Assembly (NCBI GenBank): GCA_034722995.1 | Contig: JAYEOL010000015.1 | Span: 1-37,220 of the forward strand | Direction: 5' to 3' | Source of the DNA: Candidatus Cloacimonadota bacterium | Lineage (GTDB): Bacteria; Cloacimonadota; Cloacimonadia; JGIOTU-2 | Length of the DNA stretch: 37,220 nt | Part shown: positions 7,955-15,886 of the stretch, piece after piece | Layout of the letters: each line of letters starts with the position of its first letter | Numbering within the stretch: position 1 is the first letter of the stretch | Notes under the pieces: generated by a model | The model's input: the letters and a program-made list of their open reading frames with translations, nothing else | Told to the model about the DNA's origin: nothing | Database searches by the model: none | Made by a program: the position numbers and the translations under genes

Positions 7955-8416
7955 TCATAAATTCAGGTTTTCTATAAACTTCTTTGCATTTTCCAAATGC
8001 GTCCCAACCCAGTAGACCTTTCCACAAAGTAAACATTGAAAAAATCTATCTTGATTTTGATATACATATTCCGGCACAATATCTTTCACATATTCCTTTT
8101 CAATTTCAGTAGTTTTTCTATTACATATTGGACATCTTGTAAACATTTTGTCTGTTGATAGTCTTACTTCATTATTTAGCTCAAGCAATTGGTCTTTCAG
8201 ATTATCTTTTTTTATGAAAATTATCTTTATTGGGTGCCTTCTTTTTCTAAAAGTATGATTTCTTGTAATTAGGATTCTCTTATCTTTATTTGCAATACTG
8301 AGTAAAGTTGCATTGCTGATTTTGTTTTTGTAGAATGTATCATATCCCAAAACTCGAAGCCATTTGGCTAATTTTCCAAGCATCTTATCAACTGCAAAGC
8401 AAGGACTATTTTTCAT
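7955..8416 (-). CDS. Mut7-C RNase-fold domain protein with zinc ribbon
   Basis: The 153-residue protein matches the Mut7-C family. An N-terminal PIN-like part begins CFAVDKMLGKLAKWLRVLGYD (positions 6-26), with the acidic residue expected of a nuclease, and RILITRNHTF follows at about 48-57. The C-terminal zinc ribbon has two CxxC pairs (CPICN near 97, CLLCGKVYW near 130). Family members are predicted RNases, but the substrate is unknown. It is separated from neighbours by a repeat on one side and the rpmE promoter on the other, so it may be its own unit. Confidence 0.85.
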   Translation of the reverse strand: MKNSPCFAVDKMLGKLAKWLRVLGYDTFYKNKISNATLLSIANKDKRILITRNHTFRKRRHPIKIIFIKKDNLKDQLLELNNEVRLSTDKMFTRCPICNRKTTEIEKEYVKDIVPEYVYQNQDRFFQCLLCGKVYWVGTHLENAKKFIENLNL

Positions 8417-8432
8417 ATAGAAAACCTATATT

Positions 8433-8532
8433 AAATGTCAAATATCAAAAGCCAAAATTCAAATGGTTTGTATCTTTGAAATTTTGTCATTTGGATTTTA
8501 CTTGAACTTTGGATTTTGTAATTTGACATTTT
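8433..8532. repeat. Long imperfect inverted repeat (AAATGTCAAAT termini)
   Basis: The left arm 8433-8464 begins AAATGTCAAATATCAAAAGC and the right arm 8500-8532 reads as its imperfect reverse complement (AAATGTCAAATTACAAAATC), with roughly 80 percent match over 32 bases around a 35-base centre. It fills the gap between the Mut7-C and TIGR04076 genes and looks like a small non-coding repeat element rather than a terminator. Confidence 0.65.
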
Positions 8533-8538
8533 TTTCTT

Positions 8539-8829
8539 CTATTCAATTTTGGTTATTTCAAAAGTTACAGTTCCGCCACCAGTGAAAGCTACCGGGTCTA
8601 AACATTGAACATAAGCTTTATCTCTATCATTTCCTTTTCCAGCTAATCCCCAGACATTTGAGTCAGACACTTTAAGCGCATTGTAATGTGGAAGCAAAGA
8701 AGCCAGAGAGTGCATACAAATCGGTATTTTCGTAACCAACCGATAACCATCTTCCAGCTTAAATGTATCCCCAATTTTATAAACAGGGCAGTTGCCTTTA
8801 ATTTCTTTGACTTTAATAATAAGATCCAT
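8539..8829 (-). CDS. TIGR04076 family protein
   Basis: A 96-residue protein matching the small TIGR04076 family, with GNCPVYKIGDTF near the start, CMHSLASLLPHYNAL in the middle and VQCLDPVAFTGGGTVTFEI at the end. Three conserved cysteines (in GNCP, ICMH, QCLD) suggest metal or redox chemistry, but no function is known. GGAG sits seven bases before the ATG. It is the last gene in the minus-strand run that includes the lipid cluster, 79 bases after the ARMT1-like gene. Confidence 0.82.
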   Translation of the reverse strand: MDLIIKVKEIKGNCPVYKIGDTFKLEDGYRLVTKIPICMHSLASLLPHYNALKVSDSNVWGLAGKGNDRDKAYVQCLDPVAFTGGGTVTFEITKIE

Positions 8830-8873
8830 TTTTTTACTCCGGACTAATTTTTAATTGCTTGGATTCACAACAG

Positions 8874-8909
8874 AAACCCGACTCGAGCAAACTTGCCCGA
8901 CTCGGGTTT
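8874..8909. repeat. Palindromic repeat (AAACCCGACTCG family), copy 1
   Basis: Arms 8874-8891 and 8892-8909 are near-complementary (AAACCCGACTCGAGCAAA against its partner, three mismatches). It abuts the stop codon of the ARMT1-like gene, so it may also act as a terminator, although no T-run follows. A second copy is at 19231-19266. Confidence 0.65.
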
Positions 8910-9751
8910 TATTTAATCCCTTCCAAAATGATATCGCCTACAGACACATTCAAATCCCTGGCAATAACAGGGCATTTTGCCTTTAGTAGGAAAAATATGT
9001 TCTTCTTTTCATCAGATAAAGCTTCATAATTTCCCTGACCTTTACTGATTATAAAATTAGAATTTTCATATATTTTTAAAAACTCATTACTACAGGTGTT
9101 TAATACAAGACCTGGCGCATCAGTGCCAGAAGAAACAATAGTTGCGATCTTATCTATTCCAGAATCAATTGCATCTTGATATGTTACATCATTTATCACA
9201 GGGACTTCTCTAACAACATAGATTGTCGGCTTTTTCAATTGCTCTATCAGTATTTTATCAAATACACTTTCTCCAGCATTATCTCCAATGTATAGAACTT
9301 TGTCTGCTTTTTGTATATTATATTTGAATTGTTCATAATCATAGATAGCAAACTCCATTTTGAAAACCTCATTTAATTCCTTTTCAATTTCACAATCAGG
9401 ATTAATAGCAAGATCTATTACATTTCCCGCAATTGCAGCTTTTACTGCGGTCATCAAAGGGTCAACAGATTTATAAATCTTTTTTTTGATATTAGGATAT
9501 AATCGGAGTGCTTCTTTAATATTCTTTTGTTTTAAATTTTTGTAAGGGTCAGATTTTCCCGTAAGCACACGAATCTTTCCGTAAATTATTTTCCCAAATT
9601 CTGGAGGCGTGCTTTCTATGGGCATTTGATTAATTAATAATCCAATTTCACTTAATAACCTTTTTGTTTCTGAGTCGTTAATATTAGTAATCCTTGCAGC
9701 TCTAAGTGCTTGTTGAAAAAAACAAGGGATGCACTCAAGGTATGTTTTCAT
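8909..9751 (-). CDS. ARMT1-like / DUF89 metal-dependent phosphatase
   Basis: The 280-residue protein belongs to the DUF89 (ARMT1-like) family, whose characterised members are metal-dependent damage-control phosphatases acting on sugar phosphates or other phosphometabolites. Signatures are an N-terminal ECIPCFFQQALRAA (CxxC at 7-10), YIGDNAGESVFDKILIEQL (DNAGE, metal site, about 155-173), SSGTDAPGL (about 208) and SKGQGNYEAL (about 237). It follows the CpsB-like gene by 91 bases, in the same direction as the lipid genes. Whether it serves lipid synthesis, for instance by removing wrong phosphates, is unknown. Confidence 0.85.
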   Translation of the reverse strand: MKTYLECIPCFFQQALRAARITNINDSETKRLLSEIGLLINQMPIESTPPEFGKIIYGKIRVLTGKSDPYKNLKQKNIKEALRLYPNIKKKIYKSVDPLMTAVKAAIAGNVIDLAINPDCEIEKELNEVFKMEFAIYDYEQFKYNIQKADKVLYIGDNAGESVFDKILIEQLKKPTIYVVREVPVINDVTYQDAIDSGIDKIATIVSSGTDAPGLVLNTCSNEFLKIYENSNFIISKGQGNYEALSDEKKNIFFLLKAKCPVIARDLNVSVGDIILEGIK

Positions 9752-9842: not shown

Positions 9843-10637
9843 TTAAATCCTGAGGAACTCTCTTACCTTTTCAATCAACGATCTTTTCCATTTCCCTTCT
9901 TCAAAATATCCTTCAACCATACTTTCAACAGGTTCATTATGAATAACTCTTCCTGGATTCTCTTCTAAAAGCAGTTTGGCTAAGTCTTCTGTATAATTTT
10001 CTGATAAGTATTCATAGGCTTCTTTTAGCATAATTGGTCGTTTATTTATATGATGGACATCAGATGCGATAAAGTGTACACACCCCGTTTGTAAAATCCT
10101 ATAGGCAAGTTTTTGAACATTCGCACCATAATCACCCAAAAAGCTTCCGCTATTTAACTGTATAAGAATTCCGCTGTTGGCAATATTAATCAGACGATTG
10201 AAATCGTTTAAAAATGGTGTAAAGCGTTCAGCATGAGCGAGAATTGGAACATATCCTGCTACCTGAAATTGATATAATGTCTCTTCAAAATTGTCAGGAA
10301 ATCTTTGTAAGTCCGATTCTATCAAAATATAATTACTTCCAGCCAAGTTCAACTCTTCTTGTTTTGTTTTCTCAATAATATTTGGTTCGTAATAAAGCTC
10401 TGCGCCTTTGTATACTTTGATTGGTAACTTGTTTGCAATTATTTCTGATTTTAGTTTTTCTATTTTTTCATCTATGATTTTTTTAGTATTATTATAAACG
10501 CCAGTGATTATATGAGGAGTGGCAATTACTTCAGTAACCTTATTATTTATTAGTTCACGAATTATTGCTAAACTTTCCTCAATATTTTTAGCGCCGTCGT
10601 CTATACCTGGTAAGATATGAGTATGTATATCTATCAA
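9843..10637 (-). CDS. CpsB/YwqE-type PHP-fold tyrosine phosphatase
   Basis: The 264-residue PHP-fold protein starts MIDIHTHILPGIDDGAKN, the signature of CpsB/CapC/YwqE manganese-dependent protein-tyrosine phosphatases that regulate capsule and exopolysaccharide export. Further metal ligands are in VIATPHI (about 39-45), HAERF (about 135) and ASDVHH (about 195). The start codon is TTG at 10637-10635: AAGGAG eight bases upstream lies inside the final codons of the GGGP synthase gene, whose stop is only two bases away, so translation is coupled. That linkage ties this phosphatase to the lipid genes more closely than chance neighbours. Capsule regulation is the family role; a lipid-related substrate is speculation. 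Confidence 0.85.
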   Translation of the reverse strand: MIDIHTHILPGIDDGAKNIEESLAIIRELINNKVTEVIATPHIITGVYNNTKKIIDEKIEKLKSEIIANKLPIKVYKGAELYYEPNIIEKTKQEELNLAGSNYILIESDLQRFPDNFEETLYQFQVAGYVPILAHAERFTPFLNDFNRLINIANSGILIQLNSGSFLGDYGANVQKLAYRILQTGCVHFIASDVHHINKRPIMLKEAYEYLSENYTEDLAKLLLEENPGRVIHNEPVESMVEGYFEEGKWKRSLIEKVREFLRI

Positions 10638-10639
10638 TT

Positions 10640-11395
10640 TTATTTCTCCTTATGGATTGCGTTGACAAATTTTTTGATTAAATCTTTGTCATTATTATCT
10701 TCTATTGCGGAACCGATAACAACAAAATCTGCACCAGCCTTCACTTTTTCTTTTGCTTGCTCTGGTGTTTTTATTCCTCCGCCAACAATCAGAGGTATAT
10801 TGATATTATTTTTTACATTTCTTATCATTTCAGTGGGGACAGATATTTTTGCCCCACTACCTGCATCCATAAATACTAATTTCATACCCAAATACTGAGC
10901 TGCTAAAGCATGTGCAATGCCGATATCATATTTATTTCTGGGGATAGGAACACTGTTGCTCATATATTGTACAGAAGTCAGAGAGCCTGATTCAATGAGC
11001 ATATAACCAGTAGGAATTGTTTCAATTCCTAATTTTTTTATCAAGGGGGCAGCCTTTACCTGGTCCCCTATTAATAGTTGTGGGTTTCTGCTACTTACCA
11101 TACTCATAAACAGAATTGCATCAGCGTAGGAGGAGCACACATTGAAAATTCCTGGAAATATTATAATTGGCATTTTTACGGCTTGTTTGATAGATTTTAT
11201 AGTAGGGTCAAAATTGTCTTCAAGCATAATACTACCGCCTACCAGAATGGCATCTACACCGAAAGAGGCACATTTCACTGCTAATTCTACCACTTTTTCT
11301 GGTTCCTGTTTGTCAGGGTCTATTAAACATAAAAAGCCAGCTCCTTTGGTATTGATAGTTTTTAGCAAAAAATCATAAACTGTTTCGTTATTCAT
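10640..11395 (-). CDS. Geranylgeranylglyceryl phosphate synthase family protein (GGGPS, group II-like)
   Basis: This 251-residue TIM-barrel protein matches the GGGPS/PcrB family, which joins a prenyl diphosphate to sn-glycerol-1-phosphate, the first committed step of archaeal membrane lipids. Visible features are FLCLIDPDK (Mg/diphosphate end), AILVGGSIM, the FPGIFN and TGYMLIESGS loops, MDAGSGAK, and the glycerol-phosphate cage IVGGGIKTPEQA and VVIGSAIED. The length is nearer bacterial/archaeal group II GGGPS than the about 230-residue PcrB of Bacillus, which makes heptaprenyl products. ATG 11395 is chosen because AAGGAG stands eight bases before it; a further in-frame ATG at 11419 lacks one. 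It sits between a UbiA prenyltransferase and a PHP phosphatase. Chain length is inferred from context. Confidence 0.9.
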   Translation of the reverse strand: MNNETVYDFLLKTINTKGAGFLCLIDPDKQEPEKVVELAVKCASFGVDAILVGGSIMLEDNFDPTIKSIKQAVKMPIIIFPGIFNVCSSYADAILFMSMVSSRNPQLLIGDQVKAAPLIKKLGIETIPTGYMLIESGSLTSVQYMSNSVPIPRNKYDIGIAHALAAQYLGMKLVFMDAGSGAKISVPTEMIRNVKNNINIPLIVGGGIKTPEQAKEKVKAGADFVVIGSAIEDNNDKDLIKKFVNAIHKEK

Positions 11396-11403
11396 TTGAA
11401 AAC

Positions 11404-11500
11404 TCCTTGCTTCGCCCAACTGCCAAGCCTTGGCGGGCAGGCCGCAGCCTGTCCACGCTCCGTCGCTCCCTGATTAAATCGGGATGGAAAGCGGGGAGAT
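11404..11500. repeat. GC-rich hairpin-forming intergenic element in the lipid operon
   Basis: In a window that is about one third G+C, this stretch is clearly GC-rich. It holds nested hairpins such as GCCAAGCCTTGGC (about 11423-11435) and CCCTGATTAAATCGGGA (about 11469-11485). It lies between the UbiA and GGGPS genes, just upstream of the GGGPS ribosome binding site, and would be present in the cotranscript. Confidence 0.6.
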
Positions 11501-11506
11501 ACTAAG

Positions 11507-12334
11507 TCATTGTCCAACCCAAAGTAAAGCTAAGCATAGCAGCATATCTATTTTCATAAGCTTTTCGGAAGTTCCTGCAACTTTTTTACTCATCTTCAAA
11601 AATAGAATTAATAAATTTACCAGAAGATAAGCATCGCACAAAACAATTATCAGAATAAAAATAGGGAGTCCATAAAACTTATGAAATCCCAGCACTGTCA
11701 AGATAGTAAGAAATACCCATGATAGAAATAACAAGACAAGCGTGATATTCTCACCATATATAATGGGAACAGTTTGAGCGCCAATCTTCTTATCTCCTTC
11801 AATATCTTCTAAATCCTTTACCAGTTCTCTTATTATGGTATATAAAAATGCACAGCCAAACACGAAGAACGAATTCCCAACATTATTGTTTGCAAAACCA
11901 CCATAGATGAATGTTGAACCAGTAACAAATGCAACCAGAATATTTCCGAGGAATTCCAGCTTCTTTCCTCTATAAGCATAAAGATAAAGTAAAAATGAGT
12001 TACCAATCGCAAGCAAAATTATCCAAGAGTTTTTAATGCAGATACTGATAACAATTCCACCAGCAAATAACAAAAAAGCATATCGTTTGGCATTTAAAGG
12101 TGAAATTATACCACTGGGAATTGGCCTTTCTGGTCTGTTGATTTTGTCAATATCTCTATCAAAAAAATCATTTATCACATATCCACCACTGGCAATCAGA
12201 GCAGCCGACAGTGAAGCTAAATACGGAATAAATTGATGTATGCCTTTAAACCAGAAAGCACCAAAAAGAACAGAAAGGATAACAAAGAGAAAATTGAAAG
12301 GACGAACAATTTTAATATATGAAACGAATTTCAT
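11507..12334 (-). CDS. UbiA-family prenyltransferase, probable digeranylgeranylglyceryl phosphate synthase
   Basis: This 275-residue polytopic membrane protein has about eight hydrophobic helices. It has both aspartate-rich motifs of UbiA enzymes: NDFFDRDIDKINRPERPIPS (55-74) and KDLEDIEGDKKIGAQT (about 173-188). The N-terminus YIKIVRPFNFLF is typical of the branch that adds the second geranylgeranyl group to geranylgeranylglyceryl phosphate in archaea. Its place between a GGPP-type synthase and a GGGP synthase supports that role over quinone or chlorophyll prenylation. ATG 12334 gives the family-like N-terminus; an in-frame ATG at 12352 would have GGAGG directly touching it, too close to serve. 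Acts in the inner membrane. Confidence 0.83.
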   Translation of the reverse strand: MKFVSYIKIVRPFNFLFVILSVLFGAFWFKGIHQFIPYLASLSAALIASGGYVINDFFDRDIDKINRPERPIPSGIISPLNAKRYAFLLFAGGIVISICIKNSWIILLAIGNSFLLYLYAYRGKKLEFLGNILVAFVTGSTFIYGGFANNNVGNSFFVFGCAFLYTIIRELVKDLEDIEGDKKIGAQTVPIIYGENITLVLLFLSWVFLTILTVLGFHKFYGLPIFILIIVLCDAYLLVNLLILFLKMSKKVAGTSEKLMKIDMLLCLALLWVGQ

Positions 12335-12352
12335 TAGACCCGTTCTCTCCAT

Positions 12353-12467
12353 CCTCCGAAGTAGAGAACTTCTACGGAGGACGGGCGTAGTCCCGATTTA
12401 ACCGGGACGAAGGGTGAAAATTAGTCCCGACTGGTCGGGAGTAATTTGTAGTTGCAACGAAGTTGCA
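12353..12467. repeat. Cluster of four hairpins between prenyl synthase and UbiA genes
   Basis: Four inverted repeats follow one another: 12353-12380 (CCTCCGAAG ... CTACGGAGG), 12390-12408 (GTCCCG/CGGGAC), 12425-12440 (TCCCGAC/GTCGGGA) and 12453-12467 (TGCAAC/GTTGCA around GAA). The last ends one base short of the prenyl synthase stop codon. The first belongs to a family also seen at 19305-19360, 27378-27425 and 35197-35246. In the transcript these could slow RNases or attenuate transcription. Confidence 0.65.
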
Positions 12468-13391
12468 TTACGGTACTCTATCTCTTATTGTTTCCAGAAA
12501 TTCCATAAGTACCTGATTGTTTGGCATATATTTGATAATATTATGAGCGTCGTGGATAAGTTTCAGAGCTTGTTTCTTAGATTCTTCAATACCAAGTAAG
12601 ACCGGGTATGTAACCCTTTCATTTCGCTGGTCTTCACCGGATTCTTTTCCCAGCAATTCATCTGCACCAACCTCATCCAGAATATCATCAATTACTTGAT
12701 AAGCAAGTCCAATATTTAATGCAAAATCACTAAGAGCATTAGTAACTTGCTTGGTAGCATTAGCCATCACACAAGCCATCTGCTCGGCACCCTGGAGCAA
12801 TGCGCCTGTTTTTTTTAAATGAATATCTCTAAGCACATGAAGTTTAACTCTTTTCTGCGCAGATGTCAAATCTACTACCTGACCACCTATCATACCACGA
12901 GTAGAAGCAGCATCAAGTAGTATTTCTAAGCATTGCAAAGCTTTCTTGTGATTGTTGAGTTTTAGTATGGTCTCAAACGCTTTTGTAATCAGAGCATCTC
13001 CAGTTAGTATTGCTATAGCATTACCGAATTTTTTGTGACAACTGGATTTTCCGCGCCGTTTATCAGCATTATCAATAAATGGAAGGTCATCATGGATTAA
13101 TGATGCGGTATGAAGCATTTCAATGGCAGCCGCAAGAGGAAGCAATTTCTGGAGCGCTTTACTAGTATGGCGGTTGACTAACATCTCATAAGTAGCTATT
13201 AAGAGAATAGACCGAAGTCGTTTACCGCCTACAAAAATAGAATACCTCATCGCCTTATGAATTTTCTGTGGATATGTATCTGCAGATGTAAGGTACTTAT
13301 CAAGAGCCTTATTTATAATTTTTCTTCTGCCTTCAAAATATCTTTCTAATAACAATCTTCCTCCTGTATTTTGCCCGAATTTTTTGAGCAA
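12468..13391 (-). CDS. Polyprenyl synthetase, probable geranylgeranyl diphosphate synthase
   Basis: The 307-residue trans-prenyl synthase has a first aspartate-rich motif HDDLPFIDNADKRRG (100-114; the two-residue insertion is typical of bacterial short-chain enzymes) and a second, DDILDEVG (235-242). GGKRLR (55-60), the GQVVDL segment (170-175) and KTG (194-196) are also present. Five residues before the first motif is A96 (HTASLIHDD). Farnesyl synthases usually carry a bulky aromatic there, whereas a small residue lets the chain grow to C20, so GGPP is the likely product. It is the first gene of the lipid cluster; TTGACA at 13439-13434 marks a plausible promoter although its -10 box is weak. 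It would feed the GGGP synthase and UbiA enzymes downstream, and possibly quinone or carotenoid paths elsewhere. Confidence 0.88.
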   Translation of the reverse strand: MLKKFGQNTGGRLLLERYFEGRRKIINKALDKYLTSADTYPQKIHKAMRYSIFVGGKRLRSILLIATYEMLVNRHTSKALQKLLPLAAAIEMLHTASLIHDDLPFIDNADKRRGKSSCHKKFGNAIAILTGDALITKAFETILKLNNHKKALQCLEILLDAASTRGMIGGQVVDLTSAQKRVKLHVLRDIHLKKTGALLQGAEQMACVMANATKQVTNALSDFALNIGLAYQVIDDILDEVGADELLGKESGEDQRNERVTYPVLLGIEESKKQALKLIHDAHNIIKYMPNNQVLMEFLETIRDRVP

Positions 13392-13504: not shown

Positions 13505-15886
13505 TTACAATAGCGATACAGGATCCATATCAATCTGCATCTTTATGTAACTTGGTATTTTTATATTTTGCTGAAACCAACCAATAAACTTGTAAACTGC
13601 ATTTCTATCTTTTGCTTTAATCACAATATGATAGCGATATTGTTTGCGAATTTTACTTAATGGCGCCGCAACTGGACCTAGAATAATTATATTTTCAGAT
13701 TTTTCAAATTGTTTAAGTTTTCCTCTAATCTTAAATACGATCTCTTTTAATTTGTCTTTGTCCCCCAAAGTAAAAAGCAATCTAACTAATTTTGTATATG
13801 GTGGATAATGAAGTTTTTTTCGTAGTCCAAGTTCATGTTCGGTAAATTCTATAAAATTCTGTTTTTGTGCAAGTTGTATGCTATAATGTTTAGGATTGTA
13901 GGTTTGCACTATGACTTCGCCTTTTTTTTCACTTCTGCCTGTGCGTCCTGCTACTTGTGTAATATGCTGGAAGTTTCTTTCAGCAGCACGAAAATCAGGT
14001 AGATTAAGATTTACATCAGCGGAAATAATGCCAACTAAAGTTACATTTGGGAAATCCAGCCCTTTTATTATCATTTGTGTTCCAAGCAAAATATCAATAT
14101 AACCATTTCTTACTTTATTAAATACCTTTTGATAGACCTGTTTTCCTCTGGTTGTATCTGTATCCATACGGGCAATTCGTGCTGTAGGAAAAAGAAACTC
14201 CAGATTTTTTTCTATCTTCTCGGTTCCCGGAGAGCCAAAGTTAAATATGTATCCTTCACATTCTGGACACTTTTTCGGCAAAGCTTGATTATATCCACAA
14301 TAATGGCAAACCATACGATTGTTATACGAATGATATGTGAGGCTGATGTTACAATCTTTGCATTGAAAAACTTTCCCACATTTTACACATTGGACATAAG
14401 ATGCATAGCCTCTCCTGTTTTGAAAAAGAATTATCTGCTCTTTTTTTATTAATCGGTCTTCTATTTTGTCTTTAAGAAGTTGTGATAAAATTTCAGTATG
14501 ATCCTTTTCTTGTCGCATATCAACGATAGTGAGTTCGGGCAGAATTTGATTTTGTACTCTTTCTTTCATTTCCAACAGCTGATATTTGTTTTGACTTGCG
14601 TTATAGTATGATTCCAAAGAAGGAGTGGCACTTCCTAAAACTACGACGGCATTATTTAATTTTCCTCGCAATACAGCCATATCTCTGCCATTATAAAGAG
14701 GATTCCTTTCAGTTTGCTTGTAAGTGTTTTCGTGCTCTTCATCCACGATTATCAAACCAATATTTTTAAGTGGCGCAAAAATAGCACTACGAACACCAAT
14801 TACGACTTTCTTTTTACTTCTATTAATTTCATTCCAGGAATAAAGTCGTTCTCTATCACTGAGTTTGCTGTGGATAACCGCAATATCATCTCCAAAATGG
14901 GCGTAAAATCTTTCAACAGTTTGTGGAGTTAAGGAAATTTCTGGAATGAGCAGAATCGCAGTCTTCCCTTTTGCCAGCACTTTTTTCATTACTCTGATAT
15001 AAACCTCTGTCTTTCCACTTGATGTAACCCCGTGGAGTAAGAAAGTTTGAAATTTTTTTAAAGAGATTGCTTTTTGAATTTCTGAAACGATACTATCTTG
15101 CTCACCCGTAAGTTCAAATTGTGGGGGAGAAAATTTGTTGATACTTTCAAAAATGTCAGGATAAACTTCTTTTTTGACAAGATTGACCAGTCCCTTCTCT
15201 CTCAACTTATTAATAATACTATAAGAGAATTTTTTAGCAATCTCGGAAACAGAGATTGTCCTTTCCTCACTTTTTAGAAATTCATAAAGCTCTCTTTGTT
15301 TAGAGGTTAGATCTGTGGTTGCTTTTTTCTCAGTTAATGTTAGACAATTAACTATTTTCTTTTCAATTTTTCTTTTGTAACTTCTTTCAATTTCAATAAT
15401 GTTTTTCTTTTCCATCTCTAACAAAGTCTTAAATAGCGAGGGAATTTTTTGTTGAGATAAGACTTGTATATTAACTGGTTGCCCAGATTTTTTCAAAAAA
15501 TCAATTATTTTTTTGTATTGCAGGTTAGTAAAATTTTCATTTTTTAGACTAATTTTCTGAATTGTATTCACATTAAGTCCTGCTGGAAGCATAGCTTTTA
15601 GCACTAAACCAATTGGACAGAAATAATATTTAGAGATCCACTTAGCAAGTTGGAATAGTTCATCCGTCAGCTGACGGGTTGGCTTTTCATCAATAATCTC
15701 TTTTATTTCTTTTACCTTTTCTGGTTCAAAATCAATCTTTTCAGGAAATCCAATTATGATACCAGTTTGCAGTCTGTAATTAAAATCTATTAGAACTCTC
15801 TGCCCAATTTGTGGATGAAGTTTTTCTTCAACCTTATAGGTAAAGGTATTTGGGTTATTTATTGGGATTGCGATTTCTAAATACAT
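13505..15886 (-). CDS. priA: Primosomal protein N' (PriA replication restart helicase)
   Basis: A 793-residue superfamily 2 helicase that reloads the replisome at stalled forks. The N-terminal 3'-end-binding domain (about 1-100) begins MYLEIAIPI. The helicase core shows Walker A GVTSSGKTE (about 284-292), IPEISLTPQ, the VDEEHE Walker B box (about 380), LGSATPSLES, and TDTTRGK and QVAGRTGR in the second lobe. A zinc-binding insertion with eight cysteines spans about 495-545 (CVKCGKVFQCKDC, CHYCGY, CPEC). Length and motifs are complete. It follows the barrel-like gene by 113 bases and has no strong ribosome binding site. Confidence 0.96.
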   Translation of the reverse strand: MYLEIAIPINNPNTFTYKVEEKLHPQIGQRVLIDFNYRLQTGIIIGFPEKIDFEPEKVKEIKEIIDEKPTRQLTDELFQLAKWISKYYFCPIGLVLKAMLPAGLNVNTIQKISLKNENFTNLQYKKIIDFLKKSGQPVNIQVLSQQKIPSLFKTLLEMEKKNIIEIERSYKRKIEKKIVNCLTLTEKKATTDLTSKQRELYEFLKSEERTISVSEIAKKFSYSIINKLREKGLVNLVKKEVYPDIFESINKFSPPQFELTGEQDSIVSEIQKAISLKKFQTFLLHGVTSSGKTEVYIRVMKKVLAKGKTAILLIPEISLTPQTVERFYAHFGDDIAVIHSKLSDRERLYSWNEINRSKKKVVIGVRSAIFAPLKNIGLIIVDEEHENTYKQTERNPLYNGRDMAVLRGKLNNAVVVLGSATPSLESYYNASQNKYQLLEMKERVQNQILPELTIVDMRQEKDHTEILSQLLKDKIEDRLIKKEQIILFQNRRGYASYVQCVKCGKVFQCKDCNISLTYHSYNNRMVCHYCGYNQALPKKCPECEGYIFNFGSPGTEKIEKNLEFLFPTARIARMDTDTTRGKQVYQKVFNKVRNGYIDILLGTQMIIKGLDFPNVTLVGIISADVNLNLPDFRAAERNFQHITQVAGRTGRSEKKGEVIVQTYNPKHYSIQLAQKQNFIEFTEHELGLRKKLHYPPYTKLVRLLFTLGDKDKLKEIVFKIRGKLKQFEKSENIIILGPVAAPLSKIRKQYRYHIVIKAKDRNAVYKFIGWFQQNIKIPSYIKMQIDMDPVSLL

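Follow-up and report, generated by a model that had tools for sequence, protein, structure and literature searches.

In a 37,220-nucleotide stretch of the Candidatus Cloacimonadota bacterium assembly GCA_034722995.1 (contig JAYEOL010000015.1, positions 1 to 37,220; the window), we identified three neighbouring genes encoding a prenyl synthase, a UbiA-superfamily prenyltransferase and a group II geranylgeranylglyceryl phosphate (GGGP) synthase (GGGPS), which very probably act one after another in an archaeal-type pathway for isoprenoid ether lipids, in a bacterium with a mixed membrane (Table 1). Co-localised genes for GGGPS and digeranylgeranylglyceryl phosphate (DGGGP) synthase (DGGGPS) were described in 2020 by Villanueva et al. 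in Ca. Cloacimonetes genomes from the Black Sea (PMC7852524), and the gene set is thus already known in Cloacimonadota; what is new here is the comparative evidence, namely its distribution, its loss with decay of the prenyl synthase in one family (f3), and an altered Phe/Asp residue pair in GGGPS. Bacteria possibly capable of making archaeal lipids are directly relevant to the question of how the two membrane types diverged. The source genome is a metagenome-assembled genome (MAG) of the phylum Cloacimonadota (1.89 Mb, 96.9% complete) in which the window is the first part of an 82 kb contig, and our phylum comparison comprised 125 Cloacimonadota genomes, 67 of them with GGGPS. Gene presence, family assignment, gene order, co-occurrence and co-decay were established from these genomes, while enzyme activities are taken from relatives (PMC7852524).

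Identity of the cluster enzymes

The cluster prenyl synthase scored over the cut-off of the FPPsyn model (288 vs 275 bits) and under that of CrtE (266 vs 460). Both of its aspartate-rich motifs are intact, the first (FARM) reading DDLPFID at 13071-13091, of bacterial type with a two-residue insert, and the second DDILD at 12675-12689. Upstream of the FARM, positions -5 and -4 are occupied by A96 (codon 13104-13106) and S97, small residues of the kind associated with type II geranylgeranyl diphosphate (GGPP) synthases, and Ala-Ser was found at these positions in every readable cluster copy. An earlier note, made from the window alone, had placed A96 at the chain-length position, and this proved exact, the residue being the fifth before the first Asp-rich motif; the only other prenyl synthase of the genome (C26:59052) is of Tyr type, with the usual farnesyl diphosphate (FPP) synthase signature. 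We infer that the cluster protein is a short-chain trans-prenyl diphosphate synthase, predicted to be a GGPP synthase dedicated to the pathway.

For the UbiA protein, the best models were DGGGP synthase PRK12882 (200.6 bits) and its relatives, with lower scores for ChlG (89), UbiA (57), haem O synthase (48), MqnP (33) and MenA (31). Its top match in the PDB was the Methanocaldococcus jannaschii DGGGPS (MjDGGGPS; 6M31, E=4e-38), and the motifs NDFFDRDID, YAYRGKK and DLEDIEGD correspond to the three MjDGGGPS motifs (D-x3-D, Y-x5-K and the second Asp-rich motif). A UbiA tree with three reference chains gave very long reference branches and was used for motif and distance comparison only. A grouping with quinone or haem prenyltransferases, which the earlier note had set against its own proposal, did not appear: profiles, closest structure and motifs all pointed to DGGGPS. 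The sequence evidence, backed by the expression of a relative, suggests a protein that works like a DGGGPS, a functional description distinct from membership of the NCBIfam equivalog. No second UbiA protein was found in the genome and, since there is one GGGPS and one UbiA, this protein is unlikely to be a spare quinone or haem enzyme. A few relatives encode additional distant UbiA-family proteins of other kinds (L098; G099:C176).

The GGGPS, the single PF01884 protein of the genome, exceeded the curated cut-offs of NF003198 (304 vs 247 bits) and of TIGR01769, phosphoglycerol geranylgeranyltransferase (221 vs 161.6), and reached 33.9 bits against the cut-off of 260 for the PcrB heptaprenyl equivalog NF003197. 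Profile scores are the basis on which we assign it to GGGPS as opposed to PcrB; they uphold the group II GGGPS call of the earlier note and set the protein apart from the PcrB grouping that it had named as the contrary outcome. Among solved structures its closest relatives are GGGPS of archaea and Bacteroidota, the Mg-binding D34 (D25 of MtGGGPS) is retained, and the GSG, GGGI and GSA motifs align with 4MM1 as the standard phosphate-binding motif.

Closer examination of the active site revealed a departure from a rule in the literature. Y134, Y178 and E180 of MtGGGPS are named in a review as strictly conserved and as the main determinants of sn-glycerol-1-phosphate (G1P) stereospecificity and catalysis (PMC9385802). 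The window enzyme retains the first as Y139 and deviates at the other two, with F183 (codon 10871-10873) and D185 (codon 10865-10867). This Phe/Asp pair occurs in 16/16 members of the window's family, Tyr/Asp in families f12 and f6, and Tyr/Glu in the remaining phylum carriers and the archaea sampled; among Bacteroidota, L015-L020 have Phe/Asp and Flavobacterium johnsoniae has Tyr/Glu. A GGGPS tree built with the pair columns excluded agrees with the families and requires five changes for Glu/Asp and three for Tyr/Phe. The pair is also present in NIOZ-UU1, the published active Cloacimonetes enzyme of the same study being that of NIOZ-UU3. Because NIOZ-UU1 and Bacteroidota share the change, the rule of strict conservation fails, and we treat the Phe/Asp enzyme as a variant inside the family, with no ground in its sequence for exclusion from GGGPS. 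The change may relax the choice between G1P and sn-glycerol-3-phosphate (G3P).

Distribution and natural loss of the gene set

Across the phylum, UbiA was present in all 67 GGGPS carriers and scored over its cut-off in 5 of 58 non-carriers, and geranylgeranyl reductase (GGR) was found in 61/67 and 7/58, respectively (Fisher test, 6e-30 and 2e-20, shared ancestry ignored in both). UbiA lies directly upstream of GGGPS, often overlapping it, in 60/67 carriers, and a PHP-domain phosphatase gene lies directly downstream in 64/67; in the other carriers the stretch ends, or the gene is undetected or located elsewhere. As the three-gene array recurs in dozens of genomes, it is not a chance arrangement. 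Virtually all genomes of the phylum contain the PHP gene, whether or not they have GGGPS, and on this basis it was rejected as a dedicated pathway enzyme. It belongs to a phylum-wide operon (PHP phosphatase - NAD epimerase - methyltransferase - UPF0104 flippase-like - MoxR ATPase; L079:10460-15169 and L168:8317-12903), likewise present with or without the lipid genes. The run of 326, 280, 337 and 336 aa following PHP was considered as an oligopeptide transporter and rejected, Pfam giving NAD epimerase, methyltransferase, UPF0104/LPG-synthase-TM and MoxR ATPase.

GGGPS was not found in family f3 (50 genomes). There, the operon prenyl synthase - PHP - NAD epimerase - methyltransferase - UPF0104 - MoxR has the same organisation as in carriers, with UbiA and GGGPS the only genes missing. 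In 38/38 genomes the orphan synthase that remains no longer has the third FARM aspartate or the DDxxD of its second motif, and every carrier copy read retains both Asp motifs. In the single pathway-less members of families f5 and f10 the prenyl synthase is damaged too. Loss of GGGPS and UbiA accompanied by decay of the synthase motifs therefore argues that the set constitutes one pathway to which the synthase is dedicated, and this decay of a third gene at its catalytic residues where two are lost provides independent support for a real pathway. Given a median ratio of nonsynonymous to synonymous substitutions of 0.12 (28 pairs, simple count), the orphan synthase is not junk; it is likely a conserved pseudoenzyme with a candidate new role. 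Examples beside the PHP gene include L168:7402-8313, L169:7199-8086 and L171-L210. Read parsimoniously, the cluster synthase served GGGPS and UbiA, and a pathway present in the ancestor of the phylum disappeared on about two occasions on the tree. A prenyl-synthase tree rooted on the FPP synthase paralogue splits family f1, probably through a long-branch effect. These natural losses offer ready-made controls for lipid analysis.

Proposed pathway and alternative readings

The earlier note had found no GGR, G1P dehydrogenase or CarS in the window, with which all searches agree, and had proposed a search of the rest of the genome. This search yielded GGR on another contig (C56:17054-17953; 212 bits vs the TIGR02032 cut-off of 158.8), with neither a G1P dehydrogenase nor CarS found. 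The bacterial lipid enzymes GpsA, PlsX, FabH, CdsA, UppS, two PgsA-like and three PlsY-like proteins are present.

In the pathway that we propose, the cluster prenyl synthase would make GGPP, GGGPS would couple it to glycerol phosphate to form the first ether bond, and the UbiA protein would add the second geranylgeranyl chain, giving unsaturated archaetidic acid (digeranylgeranylglyceryl phosphate). The later steps of the model are extrapolated: GGR on C56 may saturate the chains, CdsA and PgsA-type enzymes may attach head groups, bacterial CdsA being reportedly able to substitute for CarS (PMC7852524), and the glycerol phosphate isomer may be G1P or G3P. The resulting membrane would mix ether lipids with ordinary fatty-acid phospholipids. 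Of the three steps that the earlier note had ascribed to the cluster, GGPP formation and addition of the second chain are thus sustained by the enzyme families, whereas attachment specifically to G1P is not, there being no G1P dehydrogenase in the genome or in the carriers.

Several observations weigh against this pathway. No lipid has yet been measured in any Cloacimonadota culture; the UbiA protein falls under the strict DGGGPS equivalog cut-off (200.6 vs 296), though DGGGPS tops all UbiA models; and GGR, whose best model is the Thermoplasmatales digeranylgeranylglycerophospholipid reductase (287 bits), is under the strict cut-off of that model. CarS was not found in the genome search, and the genome has no Fe-ADH_2 protein, hence no EgsA/AraM, the same search being positive in 13/14 control genomes. 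The disregard of shared ancestry in the co-occurrence counts also matters, since all of family f3 belongs to a single clade and about two changes on the synthase tree suffice to account for the orphan state. The lack of a G1P source, which the earlier note had listed as telling against its proposal, is thus touched upon by the missing dehydrogenase. It leaves the backbone open without refuting the pathway, because the published Cloacimonetes GGGPS accepted G1P as well as G3P, and AraM is not required for G1P formation in E. coli (PMC7852524).

Misassembly or archaeal contamination is scarcely conceivable as the origin of the cluster: the source is indeed a MAG, but bacterial genes lie on both sides within the 82 kb contig, the array is present in 67 genomes with trees consistent with the families, GC content is 0.36 in the cluster vs 0.33 in the window, and PCR was used to resequence a Black Sea scaffold (PMC7852524). 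We also consider it very unlikely that UbiA serves quinone, haem or other prenylation in a coincidental neighbourhood. Its shortfall from the equivalog cut-off would fit such a role, yet DGGGPS models and 6M31 lead widely with all three motifs intact, it accompanies GGGPS in every carrier, and the adjacent synthase decays where UbiA and GGGPS are lost. A further view, in which the cluster supplies a minor ether or signal lipid, as with Bacillus PcrB, and not bulk membrane, draws on the frequent position of the PHP gene next to GGGPS, whose product could dephosphorylate the lipid, and on the missing dedicated CarS. This appears unlikely, since the PHP gene is not confined to the pathway, a second prenyl transfer together with a reductase suggests full archaeol as the product, and archaeal lipids in the Black Sea exceed the amount explained by the archaea there (PMC7852524).

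The identity of the backbone is less easily settled. The same pathway could operate mainly on G3P from GpsA through a GGGPS with relaxed stereochoice, yielding a membrane mixed in its chains and not in its handedness, a plausible though minority view. It is favoured by the presence of GpsA, by the lack of full-length Fe-ADH_2 (PF13685) in any of the 67 carriers (among the 125 genomes it occurs only in three non-carriers, and the two matches inspected, L052 and L053, look like glycerol dehydrogenase GldA), by the replacement throughout the window's family of residues said to set stereospecificity (PMC9385802), and by the use of G3P by the published enzyme (PMC7852524). Conversely, seven carrier families (f2, f4, f7-f9, f11 and f13) retain Tyr/Glu, also without the dehydrogenase, so the residue change does not simply follow from the missing dehydrogenase and a strict rule linking the two was rejected; Bacteroidota L015-L020 share Phe/Asp, and Bacteroidota GGGPS is reported active with G1P (PMC7852524); and G1P arises in E. 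coli independently of AraM (PMC7852524). More speculatively, and rather improbably as a whole, the window's family may make ether lipids on G3P via its Phe/Asp GGGPS without a G1P enzyme, placing archaeal chains and ether bonds on a bacterial backbone, while in another family the pathway disappeared and the synthase persisted as a conserved pseudoenzyme. The question of the G1P source is narrowed here by a dehydrogenase in 0/67 carriers and by altered isomer-site residues in one family, and lipid handedness (G1P or G3P) is now a testable question.

Comparison with known systems

The closest precedent to our proposed pathway is that of Ca. Cloacimonetes NIOZ-UU3 and relatives, of the same phylum, from which nothing essential differs. 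The PCR-resequenced NIOZ-UU3 scaffold carries a polyprenyl synthase and PriA beside GGGPS and DGGGPS, and the corresponding MAGs contain geranylgeranyl reductases and lack egsA, araM and CarS (PMC7852524). The Black Sea GGGPS formed GGGP from G1P and from G3P and, together with DGGGPS in E. coli, gave unsaturated phosphatidylglycerol (PG)-archaeol (PMC7852524). The earlier note, in calling such gene sets not wholly new, recognised a known kind but understated the case, as the array beside priA had been published for this very phylum. NIOZ-UU1 (L013/L040/G117) belongs to the window's family, with a GGGPS 83-84% identical. Three features do not appear in the main-text sections of PMC7852524 that we consulted: the Phe/Asp pair, the operon in its wider extent and the synthase decay in families lacking the pathway.

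Group IIb Bacteroidota GGGPS (F. johnsoniae, 4JEJ) is likewise a group II enzyme of bacterial origin, differing from the window's in its Tyr/Glu pair, and in the Bacteroidota loci L015-L020 no UbiA was detected near GGGPS, unlike in the window. MjDGGGPS is archaeal, and its cell has a G1P dehydrogenase. The Bacillus PcrB/AraM system also pairs a bacterium with a distant GGGPS homologue, but there the chain is C35, a single ether bond is formed and AraM is present, and the window GGGPS fails the PcrB model.

Genomic neighbourhood and additional observations

On the minus strand the gene order is priA - prenyl synthase - UbiA - GGGPS - PHP phosphatase, and the three cluster genes occupy, on one strand, the span that the earlier note had given. 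Its description of the surroundings (rpmE, prfA, priA, dnaE and type IX sorted proteins) as bacterial holds for prfA and the type IX sorted proteins by family searches, and for priA by match to relatives. The nearest named loci all belong to Candidatus Cloacimonadota, among them NIOZ-UU1 from the Black Sea.

Table 1. Genes of the putative ether-lipid cluster and its immediate neighbours in the window.
Feature	Position	Strand	Details
Prenyl synthase, predicted GGPP synthase	12468..13391	-	307 aa; PF00348 199 bits; NCBIfam FPPsyn 288
UbiA-superfamily putative DGGGP synthase (second ether bond)	11507..12352	-	281 aa; profiles, structure match, three motifs
Group II GGGP synthase (first ether bond)	10640..11419	-	259 aa; profile scores, alignment with 4MM1
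PHP-domain phosphatase, CpsB/YwqE type	9843..10637	-	PF19567 210 bits; 2 bp downstream of GGGPS
priA helicase, bacterial anchor gene upstream of cluster	13505..15886	-	homologous open reading frame beside cluster in L011, L070-L072

In the window's genus, the PHP gene precedes not the phylum-wide operon but two other genes, one for a DUF89/ARMT1-like damage-control phosphatase and one with a Mut7-C RNase domain (window 7955-9751). Elsewhere in this small genome, three PlsY-like acyltransferases are encoded (L131:1483-2142, L132:1261-1854 and L134:1474-2055, on C73, C22 and C44), two with altered motifs and one adjoining a DegV/FakB-like gene; PlsY is reported to take both G1P and G3P (PMC13400652). 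On C56, a few genes from GGR, lies a CTP_transf_1 protein resembling dolichol/phytol kinases (L088:13706-14359), with a possible role in cytidine diphosphate (CDP)-archaeol or polyprenol metabolism. The same contig encodes a serine palmitoyltransferase-like protein (L088:18457-19629; 611 bits vs a cut-off of 640), which hints at sphingolipid synthesis.

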